Origin: Sorangium aterium
GTDB taxonomy: Bacteria; Myxococcota_A; Polyangia; Polyangiales; Polyangiaceae
Length of the DNA stretch: 64,000 nt
Assembly (NCBI RefSeq): GCF_028368935.1
Contig: NZ_JAQNDK010000001.1
Location: 1,798,001 to 1,862,000, forward strand
Reading direction: 5' to 3'
Shown here: positions 35,943 through 58,317 of the stretch, piece after piece
How the letters are laid out: each line of letters starts with the position of its first letter
How positions within the stretch are numbered: position 1 is the stretch's first letter
Notes under the pieces: model-generated
Databases searched by the model: none
What the model saw: the letters and a program-made list of their open reading frames with translations, nothing else
What the model was told of the DNA's origin: nothing
Made by a program: the position numbers and the translations under genes

Positions 35943-37556
35943 TCAGCCCTCTTCCTTGGTCGCGAGCAGCCGCGAGAGGCGATCGCCCTCGATGCGGACG
36001 GCGATGACCTTCTCCCGGTCGAAGACCACCGCGCCCGGGGCCGCGCCGCGCGGCTTGCGCACGTAGCGGCGCTGGACGTAGCTCACCTCGCATACCGCCT
36101 CGCCGCGCGCGTCGCTGAAGTGCGCCGCGAGGGTCGCGGCGTCCACGAGCACGTCCGCCGGGCAGCTCGCCCCCTTCGCGAGCGGCACGACGACGTGCGA
36201 GCCCGTGACGCCCTTCGCATGAAGCCAGAGGTCGTGCGGGCGCGCGTGCTTCGTCGTCAGCGCGTCGTTGTCCTCGGCGCCTCGGCCGACGAGGATCGCG
36301 GCGCCGGACGCGCTGCGGTAGGCGTGGAACGGCCGCCTCGGCGCGGGCCGCCCCGCCCCGGGGGCGCGGGCGCCGGACGTCCCGGGCTCGCCGGCGCCCG
36401 CGAGCTCCGCGCGCGAGACGCCGAGGGAGCGGGCGCGCTGCGCGAGCGGATCGAGCGACTCGGGCCGCGCCTCCGCCGCGGCGACGTCCGCCTCGAGCGC
36501 GGCGATCGCCGAGAGGGCGCGCTCGGTCTCGGCGAGGCGCGCGCGCATCACCGCCTCGCCGCGCTGGTAGCGCCGCGCCTTGGCGAAGAAGACCTCGGCC
36601 TGCGCCTTGGCGGGGCGCGACGGGTCGAGCGCGACCTCGATCTTGCCGCCGGTCTCCCAGTCGTCGAGGAGCGCCTTCGCGGCGCCCCGCGGCACGCGGG
36701 CGGCCTGCGCGAGCAGGAGCTGCCCCGTCTTCTGCAGGCGCGCGACGCTGCCCAGCCGCCCGAGATCGCCGCGCACCGCCTCGGCCCTGCGCTCGAGCGC
36801 CGCGCGCCGCGCCTTCACGGCGCGCGCGAGCGCCGCCTTCTCCTGCCCGGCGGCCGCATCGTCGCTCGCCTCGACCAGCGCCGCGCCGGCGGCCAGGGGA
36901 TCCGCCGGGTAGGCGATCGCCGCCGGCGGGGCGCCCCCCTGAGGCGGCCAGCGGAGGATCAGGTGGCCGGCGGCGTCGAGCAGGCGCGCCTCGCCGCGGC
37001 GTCCTGGGGCGAGTTCCAGCCGCGCCCCCGGGGACGATCCCAACCTGGGTGGGGGTACCACCGGCCCCAACCCGGGTTCGGCCGCGGCCAACCCCAACCC
37101 GGGTTCGGGAACTGCCGCCGGCACCAACCCGGGTTCGGCCGCGGCCAACCCCAACCCGGGTTCGGGTGCGGCCACCTCCAACCTGGGTGCGGCCTCCGCA
37201 CTCCCTCGGTCATTTTCCACCATGACCGCATCGCCACCCCCCGCGACGACCACGATCCCGTCGCTCCGCACCTCGATCGCCAGCACGCGGCGGCCGACCA
37301 GGTGCGCCCTCATGGCGGCGACGAGCGGGTGCGACGCGCCGGCGCGGAGCCGGGGCAGCCTCGGCAGGATCCCTGCCCCCGCCACGCGTGGTCCGATGCC
37401 GGCGCCGAGCACGCGCCGCGTCCCGTCGTAGACGGCGAGCGCGACGAGCCCCGTCGCCGGGTTCGCGTGCGCCGCGTCGATCCGCGCCCCCACGCATCGC
37501 GCGAGCGCCTCGGCGAGCGCCCCGCCCTGCGCCGCGCTCCCCGGGTGGTCCTCCAT
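35943..37556 (-). CDS. NFACT-family protein (RqcH/Tae2-like) with repeat insertion
   Basis: 537 residues from ATG 37556 (MEDHPGSAAQGGALAEALAR). The C-terminal NFACT-R domain is clear (about 420-537: FHAYRSASGAAILVGRGAED, NDALTTKHARPHDLWLHAKG, SYVQRRYVRKP). The centre (about 245-400) is a helical coiled-coil arm as in RqcH. RqcH/Tae2 proteins bind stalled large ribosomal subunits and add C-terminal Ala tails. The N-terminal NFACT-N part is divergent: I cannot find the DR motif needed for tRNA-directed tailing. Between it and the middle lies a Pro-Glu-Pro-Gly-Leu repeat insert (nt 37040-37192). Two paralogous lipoprotein genes lie directly upstream, the nearer ending 16 nt before this start. 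Confidence 0.85.
   Translation of the reverse strand: MEDHPGSAAQGGALAEALARCVGARIDAAHANPATGLVALAVYDGTRRVLGAGIGPRVAGAGILPRLPRLRAGASHPLVAAMRAHLVGRRVLAIEVRSDGIVVVAGGGDAVMVENDRGSAEAAPRLEVAAPEPGLGLAAAEPGLVPAAVPEPGLGLAAAEPGLGPVVPPPRLGSSPGARLELAPGRRGEARLLDAAGHLILRWPPQGGAPPAAIAYPADPLAAGAALVEASDDAAAGQEKAALARAVKARRAALERRAEAVRGDLGRLGSVARLQKTGQLLLAQAARVPRGAAKALLDDWETGGKIEVALDPSRPAKAQAEVFFAKARRYQRGEAVMRARLAETERALSAIAALEADVAAAEARPESLDPLAQRARSLGVSRAELAGAGEPGTSGARAPGAGRPAPRRPFHAYRSASGAAILVGRGAEDNDALTTKHARPHDLWLHAKGVTGSHVVVPLAKGASCPADVLVDAATLAAHFSDARGEAVCEVSYVQRRYVRKPRGAAPGAVVFDREKVIAVRIEGDRLSRLLATKEEG
37040..37192. repeat. In-frame palindrome-bearing repeats inside the NFACT gene
   Basis: At least five copies of a unit centred on caacccgggttcg (or caacctgggtg) alternate with gccgcggccaacccc spacers, and a larger period of 57 bp is visible. 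The aacccgggtt core is a perfect palindrome. On the coding (minus) strand they encode repeated PEPGLGLAAAEPGL blocks, without breaking the frame. Confidence 0.85.
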
Positions 37557-37572
37557 GGCGAACGCGGCTCGT

Positions 37573-38406
37573 TCAGCGCAACGCTTCGAAGTACGGCCCG
37601 CAGCAGCGCAGCCCGAGCTCGCACGCCGCGCCGCGGTCCTCGCACGAGGCCACCTCTTCACCGTTGACGAAGCAGGAGCAGACGGTCCTGCCGGCACCCT
37701 GGGCGCGGCACTCGGCCGCGACGACGAAGCCCTGGCACGCTCCCTTGCAACTGCAGGCCCTGTCGCGATCGCCGGCGCACTCGATCCCCGGGCAGCCGTC
37801 GCCGTTCGCGCACACGTCGTACTCGTCCAGGAACCGCTGGCACCGGGGCCCGACGACGTCGCAGTCGAACCTGCCGTTCGTCAGGCAGTCGAAGAACGGG
37901 ATGAGCAGATCGTTGCACTGGGGCGCCTGGGCCAGCTCCGTGTCACACATCGTCCCGCAGCCGCCCGGCTCCGACGCTCCACACGTCTCCGCGTAACGCT
38001 CGCAGAAGCGCACGCACGCCGACCAGGCCTCGCCGCCGCCCGCCCCGCTGGAGGCGCTCCCTGTCCCCGACGTGGCCATCCAGGTCGCGCTGGTGCTGAC
38101 CGCGCTGGAGCCGCTCCCGCCGATGCCGCCCCCACCGGTGCCCACCCCGGTGGAACCGCCCACGCCGACGGTCACCCCGGTGGAACCGCCCACGCCGGAG
38201 CCGCCTACGCCGGCGCTCACCGAGACCGCACCCGTGCTGACCGCGCTGGAGCCGAACGCGCCCGTGCTGATGGCGCTGGAGCTCGTCGCCCCGGCGCCTC
38301 CCGACCCGTCGGGCATCCCATCGACGACGACGTTGCCACCGCACGCGCTCCCCCACGCCAGGGCGGTAAGCGCAGCGGTACGCATCCTGAGCATCGTCAT
38401 TCCCAT
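37573..38406 (-). CDS. Cys-rich lipoprotein, tandem paralogue A
   Basis: 277 residues from ATG 38406 (MGMTMLRMRTAALTALAWGS, lipobox GSAC). A long Gly/Ser/Thr/Val linker (about 25-125) precedes a domain of about 150 residues with roughly 20 cysteines: WSACVRFCERYAETC, CDVVGPRCQRFLDEYDVC, CSCKGACQGF, CSCFVNGEEVASCED and CELGLRCCGPYF. The cysteines are paired at regular spacing, as in disulfide-stabilised extracellular domains. It is about half identical to the next upstream gene, and the two share near-identical leader and upstream DNA, so they arose by tandem duplication. Function unknown; outer surface expected. Confidence 0.85.
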   Translation of the reverse strand: MGMTMLRMRTAALTALAWGSACGGNVVVDGMPDGSGGAGATSSSAISTGAFGSSAVSTGAVSVSAGVGGSGVGGSTGVTVGVGGSTGVGTGGGGIGGSGSSAVSTSATWMATSGTGSASSGAGGGEAWSACVRFCERYAETCGASEPGGCGTMCDTELAQAPQCNDLLIPFFDCLTNGRFDCDVVGPRCQRFLDEYDVCANGDGCPGIECAGDRDRACSCKGACQGFVVAAECRAQGAGRTVCSCFVNGEEVASCEDRGAACELGLRCCGPYFEALR

Positions 38407-44766: not shown

Positions 44767-45948
44767 TCACGCGCGGACGAAGCGAACCCTCGCGTGCGCT
44801 GCGGAGGCGCGGGAGATGGCCTCTTCGCGCGAGGCGCCCGTGGCGATCACGTACCCCTGACGCGAGTCGCTGGAGAGGATCGGACCGAGCGCGTCGCCCG
44901 GCTTCGCCGAGCAGGAGACCCGGACCACGCCGGGCATGGCGCGCGCCTCGTCGAGGCCCTCGATGGCCTGAAGCGCGCCCCCGTCGACCGCGAAGAACCG
45001 GACCGCCGCCGCCTCGGCGACGGGACGGCGGGGCTCCTGCGGCAGGCCGACGAGCGCCCGCACGGTCTCTTTCACGAAATCGACCCCGCGCGTGAGGAGC
45101 GCGAGCTCCCAGATGAAGTCGCCGCCAGGGCGCGTGTTCGACTCGATGATCCTGGGCCCCCTGGAGGACAGGCGGAGCTCCGTGTGAGCCGGACCGTGCC
45201 GGTGCCCGATCCGGTCGAGGAAGCGGAGCACGCACGCAGAGATGCGCTCCGCCTCCGAAGGGTCGAAGCGCGCCGGCATCTGGTGCCCCACCTCGACGAA
45301 GCCCGGCTCGCCCGTGGTCAGCTTCTCGGTAATGGCGACGACCTCGTGCCGCCCGTCCACGCTCTGCGTCTCGACGCTGATCTCCTCGCCGTCGATGAAC
45401 TCCTCCGCCATCAGGGGGAGCACCCCCGCGGCCGAGCTCCGGTCCCACGCGGCGCGCAGGCCCTGCCCGTCCCTCACCATCGAGACGCCCTCGCTCCCCG
45501 AGCCGCGCGCGGGCTTGAGGATGAGGGGGCCCGAGATCTCGGCGTGGAAGCGCTCGAGGTGCTCGAACGATGGACACTCGGAGAAGCGCGTCGTGCCGAC
45601 GTCGCCGCCGGCGAGGAGGCGACGCATCTCGACCTTGTCGCGGGTCGCGCGGACGGCGCCCGGCGGGTTGCCCGGGACGCCGAGGGCCTCGCAGACCGCG
45701 GCAGCCGGCTCGAGACCGTACTCCGTGAAGGAGAGGGCCGCCGACACGGGCTCGACGGCGTGGACGGCGCGGGCGAGCTGCAGCGTCTCGTTCAGATCTT
45801 CATAGTTGAAAACAAAGAGCCGAGTCGCCGACTCCACCTGTTGCGGTGTCGCCATGGCGCGACTCTGGAACACGGTCAGCTTGACGCCGGTCGAGGTGAT
45901 CCGCCCGACGGTATCCTCGTGTCCACCCACCAGAAGCACGTGTGCCAT
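44767..45948 (-). CDS. ATP-grasp ligase (L-amino acid ligase type)
   Basis: 393 residues. The ATP-grasp fold is clear: PLILKPARGSGSEGVSMV holds the ATP-binding Lys145, AEEFIDGEEISVE is the adenine loop region, and RIIESNTRPGGDFIW holds the Mg ligands Glu269 and Asn271. The layout resembles BacD/RizA-type L-amino acid ligases and other small ATP-grasp enzymes that activate a carboxylate as acyl phosphate and couple it to an amine. It is the last gene of a minus-strand operon; 30 nt separate it from the GNAT gene. In this context it probably forms an amide in a small secreted product. The substrate cannot be deduced. It ends 4 bp from the convergent DUF5916 stop. Confidence 0.88.
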   Translation of the reverse strand: MAHVLLVGGHEDTVGRITSTGVKLTVFQSRAMATPQQVESATRLFVFNYEDLNETLQLARAVHAVEPVSAALSFTEYGLEPAAAVCEALGVPGNPPGAVRATRDKVEMRRLLAGGDVGTTRFSECPSFEHLERFHAEISGPLILKPARGSGSEGVSMVRDGQGLRAAWDRSSAAGVLPLMAEEFIDGEEISVETQSVDGRHEVVAITEKLTTGEPGFVEVGHQMPARFDPSEAERISACVLRFLDRIGHRHGPAHTELRLSSRGPRIIESNTRPGGDFIWELALLTRGVDFVKETVRALVGLPQEPRRPVAEAAAVRFFAVDGGALQAIEGLDEARAMPGVVRVSCSAKPGDALGPILSSDSRQGYVIATGASREEAISRASAAHARVRFVRA

Positions 45949-45978: not shown

Positions 45979-47001
45979 TCACTCGAGCGTGAAATCGCCG
46001 GCCGCGCGCGCCTCGTCGTCGTCCAGGCCGAGCGCCTGGACGGCCGCCGCGCGCAGGGTCGTGAGCTCCGCGCGCGCGGCGGCGGGCGCGTATACCCAGT
46101 TCTCCAGGAGGCGGAAACGGTTCGCGCCGAGCTTGCGCTTGGCCGGGTGGCCACCTCGCCCGAGGTGGACCTCCCGCAGGCCCGCCCGCTCCGCCAGCCG
46201 GTACATCTGGAGCGTCTCGGCGATGTAGAGGTTCTGGCCGCCCGGCACCCTCGCGCGATCGATCCCCTGCACCATCTGGAAGAGCTGGCCCCTCGTCCTG
46301 TCGATGAAGTTCACGGACGCCTGCACCGCCTCGCCGGTCGCGCGCTCGCGACGCAGGCAGAGCAGCAGGTGCGGGCCGAGCGCGGACGCCGCGATCGCCG
46401 CGAGCGTACCTTCGTCGTAGAAGTTCCGCGCGTGCCCGTACTTCTCGATGTTCATGCCGTGCAGCCGCGCCACCTCGCGCATGGCTGCCGGGTCGCGCAG
46501 CGCCTCCTCGCCCTCCAGAAACACGAGATCATAGGTCTCCTCGGCGCGCCGCACGAGGCGCGCGAGCTCCTTGCGCTGGTGCAAGGAGAGGCGCTCGGCG
46601 AGCGCGGCGTCCACCCCATCGCGCAGATCGACGATCGCCTCGATGAACCACGGGAGCGCGAGGAACCCGGCGTCGCGGAGCGCCGCCCTGTCCGAGGTGC
46701 GGCGCACGGTGGGCACGAGCAGCTGCGCGGCCCCCAGCGCGCGCGCCCGCGCGCGCGCCTCGGCGATGGCGTCCGCCGACGGCGCCACGCTCGAGAAGTT
46801 GTAGAAATAACCGCCGAAGACCAGCGTCCGCTCGTGGTCCACGGCAGGGCAATCGACCTGGAACCGACGGACCCAGTGCATGATCTGCTGGAGCGGCAGC
46901 GCCGGCCCGGAGAGCTCGTAGAGGCGCACGAACAGCGCCTCGAAGACCCCGAGCGCTAGCTCGGACTCCAGCAGCGTCGCCGCTCCGGGCTGGCCGGTCA
47001 C
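45979..47001 (-). CDS. FemAB/BioF2-like GNAT acyl- or aminoacyltransferase
   Basis: 340 residues of the GNAT superfamily, closest in appearance to BioF2-like/FemAB-related 'peptidoglycan biosynthesis' proteins: an N-terminal half with FGGYFYNFSS and LVPTVRRTSDRAALRDAGFL, and a C-terminal half with GEAVQASVNFIDRTRGQLFQ, GGQNLYIAETLQMYRL and GRGGHPAKRKLGANRFRL (a Lys-rich motif near the end of the fold). FemX-type relatives transfer amino acids from aminoacyl-tRNA, so peptide-bond formation is possible here; acyl-CoA transfer is the alternative. Its ATG overlaps the stop of the ABC exporter gene by 4 bp, showing translational coupling. Confidence 0.78.
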   Translation of the reverse strand: MTGQPGAATLLESELALGVFEALFVRLYELSGPALPLQQIMHWVRRFQVDCPAVDHERTLVFGGYFYNFSSVAPSADAIAEARARARALGAAQLLVPTVRRTSDRAALRDAGFLALPWFIEAIVDLRDGVDAALAERLSLHQRKELARLVRRAEETYDLVFLEGEEALRDPAAMREVARLHGMNIEKYGHARNFYDEGTLAAIAASALGPHLLLCLRRERATGEAVQASVNFIDRTRGQLFQMVQGIDRARVPGGQNLYIAETLQMYRLAERAGLREVHLGRGGHPAKRKLGANRFRLLENWVYAPAAARAELTTLRAAAVQALGLDDDEARAAGDFTLE

Positions 47002-50000
47002 GCGTCACCTTCGACGAAGGGCGCGAGCGCCGGCAGCACGGCTTGCGCCGCGCCCGCGGCGTTGACGACCTTCACGACCTCGCCGCGATCCATGATGAGG
47101 ACCCGGTCGACGCCGCGGAGCGCCTCGAGGCGATGCGCGATGATGATCACGGTGGTGTCGGACAGCGCGGTATCGAGCGCGTCGAGGAGGCGCCCCTCGC
47201 TCTCGACGTCGACGCTGGCGGTCGCCTCGTCGAGCACCACGACGCGCGAGCCGCGGAGGAGCGCCCGCGCCAGGCACACGAGCTGGCGATGGCCGGCGCC
47301 GAGCCGGGCCGCATGCCCGCCCATGTCGCTGTCGAGCCCGATCCCCTGCGCCGAGAGCGCGTCCCGCACGCCGGCGCTGGAGAGGGCGCGCCAGAGGGCC
47401 TCGTCATCGTGCTGGCCCCGCGGATCGAGGTTCGTACGCAAGGTCCCGCCGAACAGAACCGGGTCCTGCGGCACGACGGTGAGACGCGAGCGCAACGCGC
47501 CGACCGGCACGCTCATGATATCGACTCCTTCCACCAGGATCCGGCCGGCCTGGATGGGCGCGGTCCGCAGCAGCGCCGCCACGAGGCTGCTCTTCCCCGA
47601 GCCCGACCGCCCCACGACGCCGATCTTCTCCCCGGGACGCGCGGTGAACGAGACGCCGCGCAGCGCGGGGACGAGGCCATCTCGATAGGCGAGCTCGACA
47701 CGATCGAACTCGACGCTCCCCTCCATCGGCCAGGTCGTCTCCGCGGCGGATGCCCCGCGAGCCTCGGGGGCGAGCCGCGAGAACTCCCGCACGCGCTCGA
47801 GCGCCGTCATGCTGATCTCCAGCTCCGCGCTGGCATGCACCGCGCGCTGGAGGCTGCTCGTGATGGTGAGCACGTACGTCACGGCCAGGCTCCCCAGCGC
47901 CAGCGACCCCCACCCACGCAGGGCGATGGTGAGCAGCGCCGTGGTCCCCAGGAGCACGGCCCCGAGGGCGTCCAGGTTGAAGGAGAGCCAGCGCTCCAGC
48001 CCGAGCTGCGCGTACGCGGTGCGCTGGGCCATTTCGACGCGCGCGAAGAAGCGCGCGTCGAAATGGCCCTCGCGACGGAGGGTCCGGACGCACGGGAGGC
48101 CCACCCACACCTGCTCGATGCTCGACAGGAGGGGCGCCTGAGCCACCGCGTCGAGGCGCGCGACCTCGCGCGACGCCAGGCGGAAGCGCCGCTGCACGCG
48201 CAGGTACACGGCGAGGAGCGGCGCGAGCACGAGCAGCGCATAAGGCGAGCTCACGACCACGACGGCCAGCGCGGAGGCGAGCGCGAAGAGGACGTTGAGC
48301 GTGTCGAGGGCGGCAGGGACCACGGCCGTGTCCACGGCGCGCTGATCGCGGGTGAAGCGGTTCAACACCCGGCCGATGGGCGTCGCGTCGAAGAACGCGA
48401 AGGGCGCGTGCGCGACGCCGCTCAGCAGCCTGTCGTGCCATCTCCTGGCCGCCTCGACGCCTCCGCGCGCGACGATCAGCGAGCGCGCGAACGTGGCGAT
48501 CGCCGCCAGCGCCCCGAACAGGGCATATCCCTCGACGACGGCGCGCGCGGGCGTGCCGGGGGCGCCGGAGCGGAGCGCCAGCCAGGCGTCGCCGCCGACG
48601 GCGAGCAGCTCGCGCAGGATAAAGAGCACGGCCACCGCGGCCGCGAAGCCCAGGGGTCCCATGGAGCGCAGGTAGTCGCGGTAGACGTCGAACGGCACGG
48701 CGCCCGCCGCCCGCTCCTCGTCGCCCGCGGCCTCCTCGTCCTCACCCGACGGCGGCGGCGCGGCGCGCCCGTCGTCCCCGCTGGCCGGCGGCGCGCCGTC
48801 CTGGGACACGACGCCGCCCCTCGCGGCGCGGACCTCCTCCGCGGGCCCGGCGGACGCGGTGGCCCGCGCGATCTCATCGAGGCGGGCGAACGCTCCCCCG
48901 GCGCGCAGGAGATCGTCCGGGCGGCCTTGCTCCACGATCGCCCCCCCGTCGAGCACCACCACGCGGTCCGCGCGCCGGGCGTAGTGCAGGCGGGTCGTCG
49001 CGAGGACGCGCGTCCGGCCTGCCATCTCGCCCAGCACAGCGCGCTCGAAGACCTGATCGGCGAGCCGCTCGTCGAGCGCGCTCAGCGGGTCGTCGAGGAG
49101 GACGACCTCCGCGTCCGCGTACGCCGCGCGGGCGAAGCTGACGCGCTGGCGCTGCCCGCCCGACAGGCTCGCTCCGGCGTCCGCCACGGCCGTGGTGTCG
49201 CCCCCGGGGCGATCTCGTACGTCGACGTCGAGCCCAGCGGCGGCGAGGACGCGCCTGTACCGCCCGTCGTCCAGGGGCGCTCCGCAGAGGACGTTGTCGC
49301 GGATGGACTCGCCGAGCACCCACGGCTCCTGCGGCGCGAAGGCGATGCGCCCCGAGACCTCCCGCTGGCCGGCGAGCAAGGTGGCCTCGCCCGCGATGGC
49401 CGTGAGCAGCGTCGTCTTGCCGCTGCCGGCCGCCCCGACGACGGCGACGAGCTCTCCCGGCGCGAGGCGGAGGTCGATCTGCCGCAGGACCGGCGCGCCT
49501 GCCCACGACACGTCCGCGCGCTCGAGCCGCACGGTCCCCGGGGGGGCCACCGCGGGCGCCGCGGGCGCGAGCTCCTCGATGGCGAAGAACGCCTCGATCC
49601 GCTGGAGCGCGACGCGGCCTTCGATGACCGACATGAGGAGACGCGGCAGGAAGAGGAGCGGCGGCCGGAGGACGCCGAGGACGGCGATCGTCGACATCAC
49701 GATCGGCACGTCCAGGGCGCCGCCGAGCGCGGCGTGGACGGCGAACGTGACGAGGGCGACCAGGATCGGCCCGGTCTGGAAGACGACGTTGAGCGCCGCG
49801 AGGCCGAACGCCTTGCGATCGAGGAGCCGGAGCTCCCCGCGCCGCGCCTCCTCCACGCGGGCGAGCAGCACGTCCTCCCAGCCGTTCAGCTTCAGCGCGC
49901 GGATCCCGCGGAGCGCGTCCGAGAGGAGCCCCAGCCGATGATCCGTCTTCTGCGCGAGCTCGCTCGACACGCGCTCGAGGGCGCGCGCGAGGCGGTTCGT

Positions 50001-50732
50001 GATGGGCGTCATCGCCGCGAGGGCGAGGATGCCCGCCACGCTCGCGGCGCCGACGAGCGAGTAGAGCAGGAGCGCCGCGAGCACGATGATGCTCAGCGAG
50101 ATGACGATGAGGGCGGCGTCCTCGATCGCCGTGCTGGCCCGGATGACGTCGTTCGATACCAGGTTGACGACCGTGCCCAGAGAGCCGCCGTGACGGGCGC
50201 GCGGGGCCGCCCGGAGGAGCTTGCGGAACGTGATGCCCGTGAGCGCCGCGCGCACGCGGAACGTCATCTTGCCGAGGACGAAGAAGCAGTGGTGGAGCAG
50301 CCCCCAGGCGCAGACGCTCCCGAGGAACAGGGCGGCGGTCAGCAGAAGGCCCTCGCGGACCGGCGCGTCGGGCGTCTCCAGCCACTGGAGGAAGCGCTCG
50401 AGCACGCCCGGGAGCGACACGCTCGACGCCGCGTGGGCGAGCCCGAGGCCGAGCGCCAGCGCGATGGTCGGCCCCGCCGTCGAGAGGAGCGCTCGCCCGA
50501 GGCGCCCGCCGTGCCGGCGGAGCGCCTCCTCGAGGGCGGCCGTCGACCGGCGCGGCGCCTCCTTCTCGTGAAGATCGAAGAGATCTTCAGCGGCGAGCGT
50601 CCTCGACGCCGCGCGGTCGAGGAGCGGCCCGACCCACGCGAACACGAGGCGAGACGCGATCGGGGAGCGCGCGTCGGGGGGCAGGCGCGAGGGCGCCGGG
50701 GAGCGCCGGGCGTCTTCCGCGGCAGCGGTCAT
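46998..50732 (-). CDS. Full-length ABCC/MRP-like ABC exporter (TMD-NBD-TMD-NBD)
   Basis: 1244 residues from ATG 50732. Both halves of an exporter are fused in one chain: TMD1 (about 60-370), NBD1 with Walker A GAAGSGKTTLL (about 430), signature LSGGQRQRVSFARA and Walker B VVLLDDP, a charged Glu/Pro linker (about 620-690), TMD2 (about 690-960), and NBD2 with Walker A GRSGSGKSSL (about 1040), a degenerate signature LGAGHRQLVCLARALL and VVVLDEATASVD. The N-terminal RLVFAWVGPLLDRAASRTLA recalls the opening of eukaryotic ABCC/MRP transporters, as does the asymmetric pair of signatures. In the operon it should export the cluster's product and give self-resistance. It overlaps both neighbouring genes by 4 bp. 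Confidence 0.9.
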   Translation of the reverse strand: MTAAAEDARRSPAPSRLPPDARSPIASRLVFAWVGPLLDRAASRTLAAEDLFDLHEKEAPRRSTAALEEALRRHGGRLGRALLSTAGPTIALALGLGLAHAASSVSLPGVLERFLQWLETPDAPVREGLLLTAALFLGSVCAWGLLHHCFFVLGKMTFRVRAALTGITFRKLLRAAPRARHGGSLGTVVNLVSNDVIRASTAIEDAALIVISLSIIVLAALLLYSLVGAASVAGILALAAMTPITNRLARALERVSSELAQKTDHRLGLLSDALRGIRALKLNGWEDVLLARVEEARRGELRLLDRKAFGLAALNVVFQTGPILVALVTFAVHAALGGALDVPIVMSTIAVLGVLRPPLLFLPRLLMSVIEGRVALQRIEAFFAIEELAPAAPAVAPPGTVRLERADVSWAGAPVLRQIDLRLAPGELVAVVGAAGSGKTTLLTAIAGEATLLAGQREVSGRIAFAPQEPWVLGESIRDNVLCGAPLDDGRYRRVLAAAGLDVDVRDRPGGDTTAVADAGASLSGGQRQRVSFARAAYADAEVVLLDDPLSALDERLADQVFERAVLGEMAGRTRVLATTRLHYARRADRVVVLDGGAIVEQGRPDDLLRAGGAFARLDEIARATASAGPAEEVRAARGGVVSQDGAPPASGDDGRAAPPPSGEDEEAAGDEERAAGAVPFDVYRDYLRSMGPLGFAAAVAVLFILRELLAVGGDAWLALRSGAPGTPARAVVEGYALFGALAAIATFARSLIVARGGVEAARRWHDRLLSGVAHAPFAFFDATPIGRVLNRFTRDQRAVDTAVVPAALDTLNVLFALASALAVVVVSSPYALLVLAPLLAVYLRVQRRFRLASREVARLDAVAQAPLLSSIEQVWVGLPCVRTLRREGHFDARFFARVEMAQRTAYAQLGLERWLSFNLDALGAVLLGTTALLTIALRGWGSLALGSLAVTYVLTITSSLQRAVHASAELEISMTALERVREFSRLAPEARGASAAETTWPMEGSVEFDRVELAYRDGLVPALRGVSFTARPGEKIGVVGRSGSGKSSLVAALLRTAPIQAGRILVEGVDIMSVPVGALRSRLTVVPQDPVLFGGTLRTNLDPRGQHDDEALWRALSSAGVRDALSAQGIGLDSDMGGHAARLGAGHRQLVCLARALLRGSRVVVLDEATASVDVESEGRLLDALDTALSDTTVIIIAHRLEALRGVDRVLIMDRGEVVKVVNAAGAAQAVLPALAPFVEGDA

Positions 50733-51643
50733 AGCTGGAAGGCGGAGCGCTCGTCGTAGAAGCCCCCTCGCACCGCGACGTGCCCTTCGATCGTGTGCTT
50801 TCCCGCGTCCTCGGCGACGAGGCGCTCGTACGCGTCCAGGGGGACCACGCGAAAGTCGATGCTCACGCGGGTCGTGCCCTCGCGGTTCTCCGCCGTCCCG
50901 TGCACCACGCGGGGATCGAACATCAGCAGATCGCCCCACCGCACGGGCACCGGAAGGCACGCAGCGGAGAGCTTGCCGCGGAGCGCGTCGTCCGAGACGA
51001 GCAGCTCATAGAACGCGGTGCGCCCCGTGCGGAAGCGCCCGAAATCGTAACCGACGCTCGCCGCGAAGGCGCGCAGCACCTCGATGCTGGTCTCGAACGG
51101 CGTCGCCAGGAGGGAGGCCGAGCCCGCGGCGTCCGTCAACGGGAGCCACATGTTGATTTGCTCGAAGTAGTCCCCCAGCAGGATGTCCGAGTGGTGGGTG
51201 AGCAGGCTGCCGTCCGGCGCGCGGAAGCGCTGGGGAGCCGGCACGGGGAAGTGAAAGCGGAGCGGCGGATCGCGCTCGAAGACGACGTCGAAGCCGAGCA
51301 CCTCCCGCGCGACGAGCCGCACGAGATCGTGGTATGCGGCGAGCAGGCCGGGCGAGGCGCTGGCGAGCTCGCAGGAAGCGCGACTCAGCCTCTCCGTCGT
51401 CCAGGCCTGGTCCTCCGCCGAGACGTGGTGGTGCAGTTCCTCCAGGGGAAGGGGTCGGCTCGTGAATCCCCGCTCCACGAGGTATTTCGCGGCCTCGTCG
51501 CGAAGCGGCGCGACCGCCTGCTGGAGGGGAACACGCCGGGGCCCACCGTCAAACAGCGCTGGCTGCGCGAGCGCCCGCTGGATCTTGCCGCTCGTATCGC
51601 GCGAGTCCGCCGTGGTGTCGGTCGTCGCCGGTCGTGAGTTCAT
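50729..51643 (-). CDS. PhyH-type Fe(II)/2-oxoglutarate dioxygenase
   Basis: 304 residues. The iron site is H151-x-D153 in LTHHSDILLGDYFEQINMWL and H248 in DPRVVHGTAEN; R259 in GTTRVSIDFRVVP would bind 2-oxoglutarate. The block FHFPVPAPQRFRAPDG and the overall order recall the StrG-like hydroxylases of antibiotic clusters; that likeness is from memory. It should oxidise (hydroxylate, desaturate or epoxidise) the cluster's intermediate in the cytosol. It is the first gene of the four-gene minus-strand operon and overlaps the exporter start by 4 bp. A purine-rich AAGGGA site lies upstream. Confidence 0.88.
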   Translation of the reverse strand: MNSRPATTDTTADSRDTSGKIQRALAQPALFDGGPRRVPLQQAVAPLRDEAAKYLVERGFTSRPLPLEELHHHVSAEDQAWTTERLSRASCELASASPGLLAAYHDLVRLVAREVLGFDVVFERDPPLRFHFPVPAPQRFRAPDGSLLTHHSDILLGDYFEQINMWLPLTDAAGSASLLATPFETSIEVLRAFAASVGYDFGRFRTGRTAFYELLVSDDALRGKLSAACLPVPVRWGDLLMFDPRVVHGTAENREGTTRVSIDFRVVPLDAYERLVAEDAGKHTIEGHVAVRGGFYDERSAFQL

Positions 51644-51770: not shown

Positions 51771-52781
51771 ATGCTCCCCAAGCTACCCGACAGAGACGCG
51801 CTCCGTCTCGCTGCCCATGGCTATTATTTCTCGTGTGCGCTCTATGCTGCCGTCAACCTGGGCATCGCGGACGCGCTGGCCGGAGACCCGCGGACGGCGG
51901 CGGAGCTCGCCCAGCAGCTCGGCACCGACGCCGACGCGACCGAGCGCCTCCTTCGGCTGCTCGTGTCCGTCGATCTCTTCGCGCGCGACGCGGAAGGCCG
52001 AGTCTCCCTGACGCCCGTCGGAGCCTACCTGCGCTCCGATCACGAGCAGTCCATGGCGAAGGAGATTCGGATGTTCTCCGGCGGCGAGGTCTACCAGACG
52101 TGGGGGGACCTCCTCGAGTCCGTCCGGACCGGGCGCTGCGCCTTCGATCGGCGACGCGGCAAGCCGCTCTTCGAGTGGCTTCCGGAGCAGCCCGTCACGG
52201 CAGAGCTCTTCCACCAAGGCTGGCATGAGATCACGACCCGCGCAGCGCGTGAGACGGCGGAGGCGTACGATTTCACCGGCGTCTCGACGATCACGGACGT
52301 GGGCGGCGGGTATGGCATCTTCCTCGCGACCATCCTTGCCAAGCTCCCCGGGCTGCGCGGCGTCCTCTTCGACCTGCCCATCTCGGTCCGCGGCGCGCCG
52401 GACAACTTCCGGAGCCTGGGCGTGGCGGACCGGGTGAGCATCGTTCATGGCAACGCGGAGGAGTCCGTTCCCGCCATGGAGCTGTGCACGATGAAGAGCG
52501 TGCTCCACATGTGCACCGACGAGCAGTGCGTCCGGATCCTCTCGCGGTGCGCCGCGGCGCTGCCTCGAGGCGGCAAGCTCCTCGTCCTCGAGCGCGTCAT
52601 CCCGGATCATGACGGGTACCACTGGAGCAAGCTCGTCGACGTGAACATGCTCGTGATGACGGGGGGACGCGAGCGCACGCGGGCCGAATACGCTCGCCTC
52701 TACGAGGCCTCCGGCCTCGAGCTGACCCGCTGCGTGGCGCTCGCGTCCGGCTTCGACATCATCGAGGGTCTGCGCGCTTGA
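51771..52781 (+). CDS. Class I SAM-dependent O-methyltransferase
   Basis: 336 residues with the architecture of plant/actinobacterial small-molecule O-methyltransferases (acetylserotonin/hydroxyneurosporene type). The N-terminal dimerisation and winged-helix part (about 1-160; LGIADALAGDPRTAAELAQQ, RLLRLLVSVDLF) precedes a Rossmann SAM domain with ITDVGGGYGIFLATILAKLP and VLFDLPISV. KSVLHMCTDEQCVRIL takes the place of the usual Lys-x-x-x-His-x-W/M-D segment that bears the catalytic base. Expected substrate is a phenol or other hydroxyl group, for example the hydroxylated aromatic amino acid derivative made by this cluster. First gene of the plus-strand operon. Confidence 0.92.
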   Translation: MLPKLPDRDALRLAAHGYYFSCALYAAVNLGIADALAGDPRTAAELAQQLGTDADATERLLRLLVSVDLFARDAEGRVSLTPVGAYLRSDHEQSMAKEIRMFSGGEVYQTWGDLLESVRTGRCAFDRRRGKPLFEWLPEQPVTAELFHQGWHEITTRAARETAEAYDFTGVSTITDVGGGYGIFLATILAKLPGLRGVLFDLPISVRGAPDNFRSLGVADRVSIVHGNAEESVPAMELCTMKSVLHMCTDEQCVRILSRCAAALPRGGKLLVLERVIPDHDGYHWSKLVDVNMLVMTGGRERTRAEYARLYEASGLELTRCVALASGFDIIEGLRA

Positions 52782-52953: not shown

Positions 52954-54018
52954 ATGAGCAAGAGAACGTTGAACAAGGTCACCGTGATCCGGCGCGAGGC
53001 CATCCCGACGCTCCGCTCTGTCATCGTCGATGGAAAGGAGCACGGGCTCGGCCTCCACAAGGACTTCCGCCGGGATCCGGTCCTCTCCCAGTTCATCCCT
53101 GACAGCACACGCCTCTCGATGGCGTGGGTCCACCTCGAGCCCGGCGAGACGCTCGACGCCCATGAGCACCCCATCGAGACGATGATCGTCATGTGTGCCG
53201 GTCAGGGTCGCATGTTCGGGGACGTCACGACCGAGCTCCTCGAGGGCGATGTCGTCGCCATCCCGCGGGGCTGCGCTCACGGCTTCGTGGGTGCGGGCAC
53301 GCACGGCTACTGGGCGCTGTCCATCCAGTTCGAGGCGCGCGGGCTCTACGAGCGCCCCGACGACGCGCTCGTCTCGTTCAAGGACGAGAGCGCATCTCAG
53401 TACGAGGAGCTCTTGCGCCGCAACGACCAGTACATGGAAGAGCACAAGTCCAACGCGATCTTCCGCTTCGTCGAGAGCGAGCGCGTCAACGACGCCGCGC
53501 AACGCGGGCGGCTGATCGACACCATCCAGGTGTGGTCCGGCTACTTCCAGAAGGTCATCATGAGCCGCATGGTGTTCGGCCGCGACGAGCGTTATCTGGC
53601 CCTGGCGCGCCAGCATTTCGCGGGCGAGTACGGCCACGACGAGAACCTCGCCGCGAGCCGGCATGGCAAGGGGACGCCGGTGTGGGATCCGCTGCTCGAG
53701 GCTTGCTCGGCGTGGTTCGCCTCCAAGATGTTGTCGATCGACGACGCGGAGAAGACCGTGCTCGTGCACCTCGTCCTCGAGGGCGCCGCGACGGTCTTTC
53801 ACCGGGTTGCCCACCCCATCATGGCGAAGTTCAACGAGACAGACCACTTCGCCGTACATGACCTCGCGGACGACGGCCACCTCGAGATGGGGCTGGAGGT
53901 GTTGAAAGGGCTCTCGCCGGCTGCCTACGCGCGGTGCCTGCGCATCCAGAAGGAAGGGTGGGACATGCTGAACGCGCTCACCGCGCGGATGGCCGAGCTC
54001 GCCGAGGCGGCCGGTTGA
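52954..54018 (+). CDS. Cupin fused to a heme-oxygenase-like diiron oxidase (HDO) domain
   Basis: 354 residues from ATG 52954 (GAGAGAAGA upstream). Residues about 45-130 form a cupin: H70-x-H72 and E76 in LDAHEHPIETMIVM, then GDVVAIPRGCAHGF with H109, a full metal-ligand set. Residues about 150-350 are all-helical. They carry E225-x2-H228 (GEYGHDENL), E276 (LEGAATVFHRV) and H302-x3-D306-x2-H309 (VHDLADDGHLE), which is the spacing of heme-oxygenase-like diiron oxidases such as UndA and CADD. HDO enzymes do N-oxygenation, C-C cleavage, desaturation and amine chemistry on amino acids and fatty acids. I know of no cupin-HDO fusion with an assigned function. The aminotransferase gene overlaps its stop. 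Confidence 0.75.
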   Translation: MSKRTLNKVTVIRREAIPTLRSVIVDGKEHGLGLHKDFRRDPVLSQFIPDSTRLSMAWVHLEPGETLDAHEHPIETMIVMCAGQGRMFGDVTTELLEGDVVAIPRGCAHGFVGAGTHGYWALSIQFEARGLYERPDDALVSFKDESASQYEELLRRNDQYMEEHKSNAIFRFVESERVNDAAQRGRLIDTIQVWSGYFQKVIMSRMVFGRDERYLALARQHFAGEYGHDENLAASRHGKGTPVWDPLLEACSAWFASKMLSIDDAEKTVLVHLVLEGAATVFHRVAHPIMAKFNETDHFAVHDLADDGHLEMGLEVLKGLSPAAYARCLRIQKEGWDMLNALTARMAELAEAAG

Positions 54019-55136
54019 GCCAGCGCGGCTCACCGCTCGCGCGGAGGACGCTCGCGGACGCCGGCCTGGCGCCCATCATTACAGGCTACCGGCCTGGCAT
54101 CACGGAGCGGCTCTTCACCAACCCACATGGAGGGCAATGGGCACCCTATCCGTGCCCGGTCCCGGTCGAGCTCGCGCGGAGGTACGCCGTGGTCGTCGAC
54201 CTTCTGGAGGAGGCTCGCCCCTCCATGGAGGCTCGCCCCTCCATGGAGGCTGGCCCCTCCATGGAGGCTGGCCCCTCCATGGTGGAGGGCCGAGCCTCCA
54301 TCGACCCGGAGGGGGTCTTGTTCACGGCGGGCTCCATCGCCGGGATCGACCTGCTCGTCCGCTGCTTCTGCGAGCCCGGCGAGGACCGCGTGTGCATCTC
54401 GACGCCGACGTTCCCCGCGTTCGCCCAGTACGCCAGGTTCCACGGCGTCGAGGTCGTGGATGTCCCGCTCGAGGGGCGCGATTTCAACGTGCTCAGGACA
54501 GAGGCGATGTCGGCGCTCGGCGCGAAGCTCACGTTCGTGTGCACGCCCAACAACCCCGTCGGGACGACGGTCGCGGCCGAGCAGGTGCTCGAGCTCGTCC
54601 AGCGCTCGCGCGGGCTCGTCGTGGTCGATGAAGCGTACGTGGAGCTCGCGGATGTCGGCTCGTTCGCGCGGCTCGTCTCCCGGTACCCGAACCTCGTCGT
54701 GCTGAGGACGTTCTCGAAGGCGTGGGGGCTCGCGGGCCTGCGGGCGGGCGTGGTGATCGCCGCCCCAGACGTGGTCCACACGCTGCGCATCGTCCAGGAC
54801 CCGTTCGCCTGCACGGCCCCCGTCCAGGCCGCGCTGGCCCGGGAGCTCCATCGCGTCGGCGAGCTCCGCGCCGTGCTGGCCCGGCTACGGGCCGAGCGAG
54901 CCGCTCTCGTGGCCGCACTCACGCGCTCGCCGGCTGTCGAGTATGTGTATCCCACATCCACCAACTTCGTCCTCGTCCGGCTCCGCCGCCCTGATGCGGT
55001 GTACGCCGCGCTGGAGCGGGAGCCGGACGTCTTCGCTGCGAATGCGCACGCGCATGTCCCGGGAACCCTGAAGATTTCCATGGGTCGGCCGGACAACGAC
55101 GCGCGCCTCCTCTCGTTTCTCCAGGCCCACGGCTGA
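54015..55136 (+). CDS. Fold-type I PLP aminotransferase (HisC-like) with repeat insertion
   Basis: 373 residues from TTG 54015, which overlaps the stop of the cupin-HDO gene (TTGA) and has GAGG seven nt upstream. Conserved blocks: FTAGSIAGIDLLVRCF, TPTFPAFAQYARFHGVEVVD, FVCTPNNPVGTTV, VVVDEAYVEL, LRTFSKAWGLAGLRAG (PLP-binding Lys) and the C-terminal TLKISMGRPDND with the substrate-carboxylate Arg. The family is close to histidinol-phosphate aminotransferase, whose relatives often act on aromatic amino acids. Four tandem hexapeptides (EARPSM or EAGPSM) sit between residues about 66 and 89. Expected job: transaminate an aromatic amino or keto acid in the pathway. Confidence 0.88.
   Translation: MSQRGSPLARRTLADAGLAPIITGYRPGITERLFTNPHGGQWAPYPCPVPVELARRYAVVVDLLEEARPSMEARPSMEAGPSMEAGPSMVEGRASIDPEGVLFTAGSIAGIDLLVRCFCEPGEDRVCISTPTFPAFAQYARFHGVEVVDVPLEGRDFNVLRTEAMSALGAKLTFVCTPNNPVGTTVAAEQVLELVQRSRGLVVVDEAYVELADVGSFARLVSRYPNLVVLRTFSKAWGLAGLRAGVVIAAPDVVHTLRIVQDPFACTAPVQAALARELHRVGELRAVLARLRAERAALVAALTRSPAVEYVYPTSTNFVLVRLRRPDAVYAALEREPDVFAANAHAHVPGTLKISMGRPDNDARLLSFLQAHG
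54210..54281. repeat. Four in-frame 18-bp tandem repeats inside the aminotransferase gene
   Basis: Units gaggctcgcccctccatg (twice) then gaggctggcccctccatg (twice). Each junction makes the perfect palindrome cctccatggagg, and the next 20 bp (gtggagggccgagcctccat) read like an inverted unit. The frame is kept. This insert splits an otherwise conserved enzyme N-terminal region. Confidence 0.93.
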
Positions 55137-55576
55137 CCGCGGCACGCGCCGGCACGAACGGCGGCGTCGGCTGATTCCTGCGGAATCGAGGCCGAGGATG
55201 TGACGCCAACGCCCTGCGTCGTGCCAGCTGCGCCGGCACACAGGACGACCGGCCACTGGCCGGCCAGTCGGTGTCGCATGCGGCGGCCAGCGCGCGTTTC
55301 ACGCGGACTCCAGCGCGCCGGAGCGCACGTCACCTGGGTTCCTCCGTGGACCTCGACCGCCGCGGCGGGCGTACCCGCCGGCGCTCTCCTGGCATGGGGC
55401 GTGCACAACAATCATGCACGCGCCAGCGGCCACCCATCAACTTGCTTCAGCGAGTCCCCAGCTGCGCGACCGAGTCGATCTAGCGGGCGCCTCACGGGCG
55501 CGTCTCTGCTGGTGAGATCGACGCGGTCGTGTGTCTGCGCGGGGTGCCCCACTGGACCGAAAGAGAGCATAGGTCG
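55137..55576. other. Gap between aminotransferase and aromatic hydroxylase genes
   Basis: This 440-bp gap lies between same-strand cluster genes. The start of the hydroxylase gene is uncertain, and its promoter may be here. I see no other gene. Confidence 0.4.
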
Positions 55577-56797
55577 ATGACAACGAAATCACGGATCGGC
55601 ACGCACACCACCGCTCATGTAACCCAGAGTGAGGCTCGCTGTCTCGCTGTGAGGTCGGCATCCGTCAACCATTCTATCGGCCTGACCCGGACCGGCACGA
55701 CCGAACGTCGACTCACCGCTCGTACGCACGGCTCCTGCGGCGAGCTCGCCCGACGCATCGTCGGGTCGGCCGCGCTGTCGCGGTACGACGCGGGGGCGAG
55801 CCGCGCCGCCTCTTCGCTGGCGAGCGACGCGCCCCTCCAGGGGGGCGAGCGCCTCCGGCGGTCGGCGGGGGCGCCCGCTTGGCTCGCCACGCGCCGCGTA
55901 CCAGCGAGCGCGCGCGACTTCGTGATGCCGCAGCGGCACGAACAATATACCGAGACAGAGCACCTCGTCTGGCGCACGCTCGTGCGCAGGAACCTGCAGG
56001 CCGTGGAGCAGTACGCAGAGCGGCTCTACCAGCCGTACATCGCGGGTCTCAAGGACCTCGGGCTCGACCAGGAGCGGATCCCCACGCTCGAGGCCATCAA
56101 TGCGAAGCTCGCGCCGACAGGATGGATGGCCGTGTGCGTCGAGGGCTACATCCCCGCCCCCGTCTACGCGGAGCTCATCGCGAACCGGATATTCCCCATG
56201 TCGCGCAACGTTCGGCACATGGCGCACATCGATTTCTCTCCTACGCCGGATCTCGTGCATGACATCTTTGGTCACCTCCCGCTGCTCTTTCATGCCCCCT
56301 ACCAGCGGTACCTCCAGCGCCTGGCCGCCATGACGGCTCGCGCCGAGGCGTCCCCCTGGGACCACGCGCTCTACCTGGCGAACCGCCGGATGGGCGCGCT
56401 GAAGAGCGACCCCGATGCCCCGCGCGACCTCGTCGCCGCCGCCGAGGCGGAGGTCGACCGCGTGCAGCGCCACCTGCTCGCGAACCCCTCGGAGCTCACG
56501 CAGCTCGCGCGCGTCTTCCTGTGGAGCATCGAGTTCGGGCTCATCGGGACGCGCGATTCGTACCGGGTCCTCGGAGCGGGGCTGCTCTCCTCCCTCTCGG
56601 AGTGCGCCGCCCTGTACGAGCCAGGGGCCGACATCCGCCCGTTCTCGATAGCGGTCATCGAGAAGGACATCCACTTCTCGGATCATCAGGCGCAGTACTA
56701 TCTCTTCGAGTCGTACGAGCAGCTCGATTTCGTGCTCGACGAGTACCAGGCGAAGATGCGCCTGCGGGCCGGGTCAGCTGTCGCTGGGGTGATGTGA
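55577..56797 (+). CDS. Aromatic amino acid hydroxylase (phenylalanine hydroxylase family)
   Basis: Up to 406 residues from ATG 55577. The first 60 or so codons have weaker GC3 bias, and the recognisable domain starts near residue 113 (ARDFVMPQRHEQYTETEHLV), so an internal start as late as ATG 55925 is possible. The iron site is H228 and H233 in TPDLVHDIFGHLPLLF and Glu319 in FLWSIEFGLIG; YRVLGAGLLSSLSEC is also typical. The gap of about 85 residues between the second His and Glu is longer than in animal enzymes and matches the long bacterial (Bacillus-type) forms. These tetrahydropterin-dependent enzymes hydroxylate Phe to Tyr. Some natural-product members (for example PacX) make meta-tyrosine, and Trp is also possible. 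Confidence 0.9.
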   Translation: MTTKSRIGTHTTAHVTQSEARCLAVRSASVNHSIGLTRTGTTERRLTARTHGSCGELARRIVGSAALSRYDAGASRAASSLASDAPLQGGERLRRSAGAPAWLATRRVPASARDFVMPQRHEQYTETEHLVWRTLVRRNLQAVEQYAERLYQPYIAGLKDLGLDQERIPTLEAINAKLAPTGWMAVCVEGYIPAPVYAELIANRIFPMSRNVRHMAHIDFSPTPDLVHDIFGHLPLLFHAPYQRYLQRLAAMTARAEASPWDHALYLANRRMGALKSDPDAPRDLVAAAEAEVDRVQRHLLANPSELTQLARVFLWSIEFGLIGTRDSYRVLGAGLLSSLSECAALYEPGADIRPFSIAVIEKDIHFSDHQAQYYLFESYEQLDFVLDEYQAKMRLRAGSAVAGVM

Positions 56798-57645: not shown

Positions 57646-58317
57646 TCAGCGGGCGGGAGCGCCCGCGCAGATCCAGTCGTTGATCGTCTTGATATCGGCC
57701 GCGGGCAAGGGTGCGGTCGGCGGCATCCTGCTCTCGTCAGGGTCGCACAGGCCGACCTCCTTCAGCTTGTTCATGAGATAGCTGCTGCTCGGCTTGAATG
57801 GCACGACGAGCGCCTGCTCGCGGGAGCAAGACGCGCTGTCCTGATCGACGAGCTTGCCCACGGCCGCGCTCGCGCGGAGGTCGAGCCCGCCGGACGGTGC
57901 GCCGGCGTTGCCATGGCAGTACTGGTTCGCGCAGCTCCTCGCCAGGATCGGCGCCACGTCAGCGAACGCCGCCGTGTCGGCGCCGCAGGCGGGATCGCTC
58001 GGAGGCGCGCCGCCGCCCTCGCCCCCGGTGCCGGCCGCCGCGCCGCCGCCGCCCTCGCCCCCGGTGCCGGCCGCCGCGCCGCCGCCGCCCTCGCCCCCGG
58101 TGCCGGCCGCCGCGCCGCCGCCGCCCTCGCCAGCGCCGCCGCCGCCCTGGTTGGAGCCGCTGCCGCTGCTGGCCTGGCTCGAGCTGCTGCCGCTGTTGGT
58201 CGTGCTGGAGGCGGCACCGCCGCCGGTGCCCGTGGAATCGTCATCGGAGCAAGCCACCGCCGAGATCCCGAGAGCCAGGCAAACGACCAATCGAAGCGAA
58301 TTGTTGTGATAATACAA
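57646..58317 (-). CDS. Lipoprotein with cytochrome-c-like domain and Gly-rich repeat linker
   Basis: 223 residues. The signal sequence ends in lipobox SAVAC (Cys23). A low-complexity linker follows, with three near-perfect EGGGGAAAGTGG repeats (nt about 58010-58125). The C-terminal domain (about 112-222) has FADVAPILARSCANQYCHGN, a CxxxCH-type haem motif rather than the usual CxxCH, then SRMPPTAPLPAADIKTINDW, typical of the Met-ligand part of PSD1-type or planctomycete-like cytochrome c domains. Haem binding is therefore possible but not certain. Function unknown; probably surface-exposed. It is divergent from the next lipoprotein gene (256-bp gap). Confidence 0.82.
   Translation of the reverse strand: MYYHNNSLRLVVCLALGISAVACSDDDSTGTGGGAASSTTNSGSSSSQASSGSGSNQGGGGAGEGGGGAAAGTGGEGGGGAAAGTGGEGGGGAAAGTGGEGGGAPPSDPACGADTAAFADVAPILARSCANQYCHGNAGAPSGGLDLRASAAVGKLVDQDSASCSREQALVVPFKPSSSYLMNKLKEVGLCDPDESRMPPTAPLPAADIKTINDWICAGAPAR

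Follow-up and report, generated by a model that had tools for sequence, protein, structure and literature searches.

A cupin fused to a heme-oxygenase-like oxidase domain in Sorangium aterium and the gene clusters that surround its relatives

What does a protein that joins a cupin to a domain of the heme-oxygenase-like diiron oxidases (HDOs), a family noted for unusual reactions, do, and on which substrate? The question is raised by a gene of the soil bacterium Sorangium aterium, which lies in a stretch of 64,000 nucleotides (hereafter the window) from a genome of 13.47 Mb and whose product, P0001, had been read from the letters alone as such a fusion. The claimed open reading frame exists: it occupies 52954-54018 on the + strand, begins with an ATG at 52954, ends with a stop codon at 54016-54018, encodes 354 aa and has a third-position GC that matches that of the adjoining genes. 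An AlphaFold2 model made from a 19-row alignment (pLDDT 88.1) consists of beta strands over residues 20-126 followed by helices over residues 146-352, with an inter-domain geometry that is poorly determined (pTM 0.62). That one chain holds a cupin and a separate helical HDO domain, as the sequence-only reading had it, was borne out by the Pfam family Cupin_2, by this model and by structural matches.

The HDO domain was delimited to residues 145-354 (53386-54015, + strand) from the AlphaFold2 model, structural matches and profile alignment. Structural alignment with VIA-align placed residues ~145-354 on CADD with Z 20.2 (rmsd 2.5, 196 residues aligned), AetD with Z 19.9 (2.7, 204), HrmI with Z 19.2 (2.7, 203), BesC with Z 18.6 (2.6, 198), HamA with Z 18.6 (2.9, 196), UndA (6p5q) with Z 18.5 (3.0, 205) and PolF with Z 18.5 (3.1, 209). 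CADD and UndA had both been singled out beforehand for this comparison. The C-terminal fold is heme-oxygenase-like (Z 18.5-20.2), and the fold of another kind that had been named in advance as refuting did not appear. TenA and PqqC structures also align to P0001, with Z 16 to 19.2, and because AetD, CADD, HrmI, UndA, PolF, TenA and PqqC fall within 2-4 Z units the fold does not choose the HDO reaction. When the whole model was searched with Foldseek, cupins made up most of the best 50 matches listed; UndA (4wwj) ranked 20 and a TenA homologue 23. SznF was not among the best 50 listed matches of either VIA search, which has no bearing on membership.

Profile searches with the C-terminal part, proposed earlier as a further check, gave a divided answer: the C-terminal 222 aa of P0001 alone had no match in Pfam, but 11 of the 19 rows of our family alignment (A3) match PF14518, 'Iron-containing redox enzyme' (Haem_oxygenas_2), at E<=0.1 (best 9.3e-7; P0001 itself unmatched). 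The CADD model TIGR04305 matches 5/19 A3 rows, with 1.7e-4 as the best value. In an hhalign comparison with an alignment of five of the eight PF14518 places of the same genome, the ExxH, VLE and HxxxDxxH stretches line up (E 1e-5, probability 82). The source genome has 8 PF14518 matches, 7 of them over the cut-off; two, at G000:C4:1769913-1771811 (L053, L059), lie in an apparent single frame of 776 codons, possibly a tandem double-HDO protein.

The motif E225-x2-H228, E276, H302-x3-D306-x2-H309 is identical in 19/19 A3 rows; on the + strand its six codons span 53626-53880 (E225, 53626-53628; H228, 53635-53637; E276, 53779-53781; H302, 53857-53859; D306, 53869-53871; H309, 53878-53880). Most A3 rows were found by one peptide pattern that holds H221, E225, G227 and H228, so the invariance of these four residues in A3 is partly built in; E276, H302, D306 and H309 lie outside the pattern. 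All six ligands are also kept in a second set of 17 HDO-bearing rows, 13 of them new, picked up by BLAST or HMM searches that did not use the pattern, and four (P0001, L008, L009 and L011) repeating A3 rows. The ExxH, later Glu and HxxxDxxH in HDO spacing that had been claimed are thus present and kept in the 19 A3 rows and 13 further proteins. A chance motif is ruled out by its retention in every relative read, including those found without the pattern. Q199, R205 and H221 are likewise invariant in both sets. H221 lies one helical turn before E225, and A3 has this invariant His221 and no third invariant Glu of the kind that serves as the extra ligand in the SznF-type 3H/4C site. From the fold match and the alignment, E225, H228, E276, H302, D306 and H309 are the predicted 3-His/3-carboxylate metal ligands, and P0001 has the fold and the aligned ligand set that mark the HDO superfamily, with metal binding predicted.

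The cupin domain, residues 1-130 (52954-53343, + strand; model strands 20-126), is supported by both Pfam and the AlphaFold2 model. Cupin_2 (PF07883) matches residues 58-115 with E 3.7e-7 and 30.2 bits (cut-off 27.2), and the domain modelled alone reached pLDDT 87.6 and pTM 0.80. Its structural matches are tied at Z 8.9-10.4 among the best 50 listed, and therefore the cupin reaction is not chosen by fold either. The metal site had been read as H70, H72, E76 and H109. The three histidines stood (codons 53161-53163, 53167-53169 and 53278-53280; span 53161-53280, + strand): all three are kept in 14/18 cupin-bearing A3 rows, in 7/7 later full-length rows that are not paralogues (L033, L071-L076) and in both split-off cupins described below. 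The glutamate did not, since Thr occupies position 76 and the Glu lies one residue earlier, at 75. A canonical 3-His-1-Glu cupin site has its Glu three or four residues after the HxH. Position 75 is variable across A3 (E, K, R, A, H, S, D, G); 12/18 cupin-bearing rows have Ser at position 76 and the others Gly, Ala or Thr, never Glu, and residue 77 is Met in P0001 and Met or Leu in A3, again never Glu. The canonical site is ruled out for P0001 by Thr76, Met77 and the unconserved Glu75. Because position 75 varies and no row has Glu at 76, the predicted site is a 3-His triad, which is SznF-like. The earlier reading as a whole thus held for the fusion, the HDO fold, the HDO ligands by alignment and the amino-acid-related context, and failed at the cupin Glu ligand.

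The genes around P0001 were identified mostly by their Pfam matches. Upstream and on the − strand lie an ATP-grasp L-amino acid ligase (44767-45948; LAL_C2 1.2e-24, ATP-grasp_4 8e-17), a GNAT-type protein (45979-47001), an MRP-type ABC exporter (46998-50735, start near 50735 assumed; ABC_tran 4.3e-45, and TIGR00957 at 6.3e-218, below its cut-off) and a PhyH-like Fe(II)/2-oxoglutarate oxygenase (50729-51643; PF05721 1.7e-5). The GNAT-type protein, which we take to be 'FemAB-like', has no Pfam match and 0 matches among PDB sequences; it has homologues at L034, L036 and L074-L076, the L076 homologue matching Acetyltransf_6 at 8.8e-6. Divergent from the PhyH-like gene, which has no homologue in the compared loci, is an O-methyltransferase on the + strand (51771-52781; Methyltransf_2 4.9e-43) with a homologue at L036 and L037. 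Downstream on the + strand, a class I aminotransferase (54015-55136; Aminotran_1_2 7.7e-46) begins with a TTG at 54015 that overlaps the P0001 stop; it is HisC-like, scoring 225 bits against the hisC cut-off of 276.55 and thus below it. Within this gene an 18-bp tandem repeat at 54209-54282 (4.1 copies, 98%) runs in frame and encodes EARPSM/EAGPSM repeats. About 0.8 kb past the aminotransferase is a biopterin-type aromatic amino acid hydroxylase (55925-56797, + strand, start assumed, the ORF opening at 55529; PF00351 8.9e-29), whose nearest solved structure is 7vgm (2.9e-50). Both neighbours named in the earlier reading are therefore present. No arginine- or lysine-related gene, AurF-type N-oxygenase or prephenate decarboxylase was recognised by Pfam among the window neighbours scanned.

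To place this neighbourhood, the distribution of the family was examined at several taxonomic depths. A scan of GTDB species-genome contigs with the peptide pattern returned 17 loci, from Nocardia, Streptomyces, three Streptosporangium, Microtetraspora, four Sorangium, Xenorhabdus, Shewanella, Pinirhizobacter and four MAGs, two of them alphaproteobacterial (Caedimonas and Odyssella) and two myxobacterial; one further cupin-HDO locus is on an Embleya plasmid. The family is sparse yet spread over three phyla. Five genomes of the same genus (G360-G364) carry P0001 relatives with E below 1e-50 among the matches listed. The family-level search matched 19/108 genomes, 10 of them (own genome included) reaching the HDO part and 9 cupin-only, and the phylum sample matched 4/282, namely the own genome and three cupin-only matches. 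Searches within genera matched 4/16 genomes in Streptosporangium (E<=1e-20), 7/148 in Nocardia (E<=1e-30; one HDO-only) and 3/392 in Streptomyces (E<=1e-30; two HDO-only), the centre genome counted in each case; in the latter two the best-looking candidates per genome were scored, and all three genus names were taken from the loci.

Gene content was then compared across 19 loci, the window and L033-L050; because ORF calls run genes together in some high-GC loci, the neighbour assignments rest on tblastn. In 10/19 loci an aminotransferase homologue is encoded no more than about 3.5 kb from the cupin-HDO, eight of class I (window, L036, L037, L040-L043, L048) and two of class IV (L034, L038); in the other 9/19 the flank examined gave no match to the query aminotransferases. 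Among full-length loci added later, an aminotransferase is present in 5/6 (L071, L072, L074-L076), the contig of the sixth, L073, ending on that side, and among HDO-only or split loci (L049, L060, L061, L077-L079) in 0/6. Class I aminotransferases number 4-31 per genome in eight of these genomes (1.6-13.5 Mb), so that the expected chance of meeting one in a random 10-kb stretch is a few percent. The ATP-grasp ligase of the window has a homologue at L036 and a weaker one at L048. Oxygenases of an aromatic-hydroxylase type occur in the window (AAAH), L034 (styrene-monooxygenase-like), L036 (FAD_binding_3) and L047 (HpaB). The hydroxylase homologous to that of the window was found in none of the other 18 loci, which rules it out as a general conserved partner and, together with its distance of ~0.8 kb from the aminotransferase, makes it weak evidence by itself. 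The amino-acid-related context that the earlier reading had proposed is supported by the aminotransferase of many loci and by the amino acid ligase of the window.

Two cluster types recur. The first (L034, L074, L075, L076) has cupin-HDO, SnoaL-like, GNAT, class IV aminotransferase, styrene-monooxygenase-like and SDR genes; the second (L072, L073) has an aminotransferase (cut off in L073), cupin-HDO, PLP decarboxylase and methyltransferase, and L037 holds the genes of the second type in a different order with an O-methyltransferase added. In Xenorhabdus indica (L047, 3641-11029) the cupin-HDO lies in a PKS-like cluster with an HpaB-type hydroxylase and a 3-dehydroquinate synthase II, a combination that hints at a unit of the aminohydroxybenzoate type. 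Since contexts differ, with a decarboxylase, a PKS-like cluster or a gamma-glutamyltransferase-like gene nearby, substrates may differ between subfamilies.

A third arrangement is found in four of the five Streptosporangiaceae loci (L040-L043), where the order is aminotransferase, cupin-HDO, a gene resembling phenylalanyl-tRNA synthetase (PheRS) and a SnoaL-like gene; the fifth (L071) has the aminotransferase, but its 13 kb contain neither a PheRS-like nor a SnoaL-like gene. The PheRS-like genes, between cupin-HDO and SnoaL-like, are at ~10275-11747 in L040, 11026-12573 in L041, ~11057-12496 in L042 and ~11098-12555 in L043, with translation starts chosen by hand in three of the four. In L041 the protein is a PheS catalytic part fused to a PheT catalytic-like part. 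Each of the four genomes has a separate, higher-scoring PheS match (G370 also a third, weaker one), and the genomes of L034, L036 and L037 have one PheS match each. Set against each genome's separate PheS, the PheRS-like proteins are without the N-terminal arm, which we take to be the tRNA-binding coiled coil, and there is no room for it because in L040, L042 and L043 the PheRS-like match begins just 72, 19 and 99 nt after the cupin-HDO match and in L041 the ORFs overlap. In 4/4 they have FAYT[ED]PS where the genomes' own PheS has FPFTEPS, a stretch that presumably lines the Phe pocket. The fused protein may be a tRNA-independent ligase. A self-resistance copy of PheRS is the less likely reading for these Streptosporangiaceae genes, because the arm is missing and the pocket motif changed in all four. 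The PHENYLALANINE hint formed by the PheRS-like genes, together with the ATP-grasp genes of the window, L036 and L048, suggests that these pathways activate an unusual phenylalanine-like amino acid.

Beside the observed fold, motifs, conservation and co-location of the cupin-HDO we set the proposal, to which we give an even chance, that P0001 works in a small-molecule pathway as a non-heme iron oxygenase with two centres and would act on a phenylalanine-like substrate, the HDO step preceding the cupin step; the metals, step order, substrate class and product are inferred. Its HDO domain would bind a di-iron (or Fe/Mn) cluster through E225, H228, E276, H302, D306 and H309 and activate O2 on a phenylalanine-like amino acid, and the N-terminal cupin would hold a mononuclear metal through H70/H72/H109 and perform a second step, an oxidation or rearrangement, on the HDO product. 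This division of labour would be that of SznF, in which the HDO hydroxylates and the cupin rearranges. The putatively co-translated aminotransferase would make or recycle the amino acid, the ATP-grasp ligase would activate it, with a PheRS-derived enzyme instead in Streptosporangiaceae, and the ABC exporter would secrete the product. P0001 most likely serves a small peptide-like metabolite, and the product of the small gene cluster is probably an aromatic amino acid or dipeptide of an unusual kind. More tentatively, the cupin-HDO might be the signature of an undescribed pathway family in which Phe-type amino acids are turned into an unusual Phe mimic by a two-metal, two-step oxidation and then coupled without tRNA, in some members by a ligase that arose from PheRS as the tRNA arm was lost and the Phe pocket altered.

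A likeness to this logic is found in the bacilysin pathway, which has the cupin BacB, the aminotransferase BacF and the ligase BacD and thus shares with the window a cupin, an aminotransferase and an ATP-grasp amino acid ligase. BacB is among the tied cupin matches (Z 9.2, best 50 matches listed). BacB is a bicupin, however, the bacilysin pathway is not known to have an HDO, and no prephenate decarboxylase is among the window neighbours scanned.

The HDO might instead catalyse alone, by C-C cleavage or desaturation of an aromatic amino acid in the manner of AetD or SktA, and the cupin would then have no reaction of its own and be a substrate gate, an assembly aid or a relic; we consider this somewhat unlikely. 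In its favour is how the two domains vary. The HDO site is unvaried in every row read, and the cupin triad is broken in three Sorangium chromosomal paralogues and the first L038 copy of A3, as well as in L010, a further Sorangium-group paralogue that has lost H70 and H72 and kept H109. Triad loss requires two changes on the best tree; a single one is allowed by 4% of bootstrap trees, and the well-supported branches alone force no second. The Sorangium paralogues L044-L046 share neighbours; those of L045 encode malate dehydrogenase and SAICAR synthetase. HDOs also occur with no family cupin found near them, within 20.6 kb at L049 and nearby at the HDO-only loci L077-L079, which share no neighbour gene with the cupin-HDO clusters apart from a weak SDR match in L079. 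On the other side, the three His are kept in every full-length protein read except the paralogues and the first L038 copy, and in two related genomes (L060, L061) cupin and HDO are separate genes on the same strand ~1.8 kb apart, the cupin with its triad intact. A relic would be unexpected given that the three His are kept elsewhere and that a split cupin with its triad accompanies the HDO. As the HDO ligands are constant and the cupin is in places separate, missing or without its triad, the HDO site is the constant part and the cupin an accessory that stays intact except in the paralogues and the first copy of L038.

The split pairs lie at 2556-5407 in L061 and 4911-7803 in L060, and by eye the gene between HDO and cupin in L061 looks gamma-glutamyltransferase-like. 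In L038 (768-5430) the order is a Pyr_redox_3 flavin-type oxidoreductase, the broken-triad cupin-HDO, a class IV aminotransferase and an intact-triad cupin-HDO.

Fusions of cupin and HDO, a point on which the earlier reading was silent, are already known in SznF, GrbD and ChmM, where the cupin is C-terminal. SznF is like P0001 in joining an HDO and a 3-His cupin in a single chain, has two metal sites and performs two steps, and its cupin likewise needs three His, H407, H409 and H448 (PMC11705231). This likeness favours N-oxygenation or N-N chemistry, in which the HDO would hydroxylate a nitrogen, the 3-His cupin would rearrange or couple the product and the aromatic context would be incidental, a reading that we regard as unlikely. 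The fragin cluster also lends it weight: overlapping hamA and hamB genes encode an HDO and a cupin in a cluster with a predicted polyketide cyclase and an aminotransferase (PMC5878181), and in the Nocardia-type loci L034 and L074-L076 the fused cupin-HDO sits with a SnoaL-like gene and an aminotransferase. Against it, the domain order is the opposite of that of SznF, which has an N-terminal domain, the HDO and a C-terminal cupin, whereas the P0001 cupin is N-terminal with no domain before it. In PDB sequences the A3 and A4 profiles found no HDO chain, SznF included, at E<=10 (HDO profile, 0 matches). The absence, among the window neighbours scanned, of any recognised arginine- or lysine-related gene or AurF-type N-oxygenase also speaks against it. 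HamA and HamB, unlike P0001, are encoded by separate genes and belong to an NRPS-loaded valine pathway with an AurF-type N-oxygenase, and HamB is dispensable for valdiazen and fragin is still detected in a hamB mutant. The HamA match to the P0001 model (Z 18.6, 10% identity) is no better than those of other HDOs. In SznF relatives such as ChmM the HDO ligands are lost and the cupin triad kept (PMC10849742); the P0001 family is the reverse.

It is highly improbable that the helical domain is a non-oxidative member of the fold of the TenA/PqqC type, near as those structures score to HDOs. A sparse, divergent family retains the complete 3-His/3-carboxylate set, which aligns with PF14518 iron enzymes, and a review terms metal-independent the part that the fold plays in PQQ and thiazole synthesis (PMC13108848).

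The preferred reading, two metal centres acting in turn on a phenylalanine-like substrate, can also be set beside AetD and CADD, whose fold (Z 19.9 and 20.2, ~200 residues) and 3H/3C ligand pattern P0001 shares; the AetD substrate is an aromatic amino acid. Identity to P0001 is 12-16%, AetD and CADD have no cupin, and the invariant H221 one helical turn before E225 belongs to the P0001 family, unlike AetD and CADD. In the five substrate-bound diferrous HDO structures covered by PMC13108848 the substrate itself ligates Fe1, and O2 leads to a peroxo-diiron species. The same review counts only about a dozen HDOs with validated function and sets SznF apart from the other characterised HDOs by its C-terminal cupin. 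PMC13061610 and PMC11659414 were also consulted, and a literature search that covered few subscription-journal papers turned up no HDO enzyme with its cupin at the N terminus. The reversed order makes a second cupin-HDO architecture, and its natural relatives, some with a single domain, some split and some lacking the triad, offer a ready comparison set for what the cupin contributes. The adjoining ligase and PheRS-derived genes suggest the first substrate to try, which makes the reaction directly testable.

Two further features of the window were noted. A 36-bp tandem repeat at 58008-58131 (3.4 copies, 100% matches) lies inside a lipoprotein-like gene, and a protein encoded at 35946-37697 has NFACT_N and NFACT-R domains.
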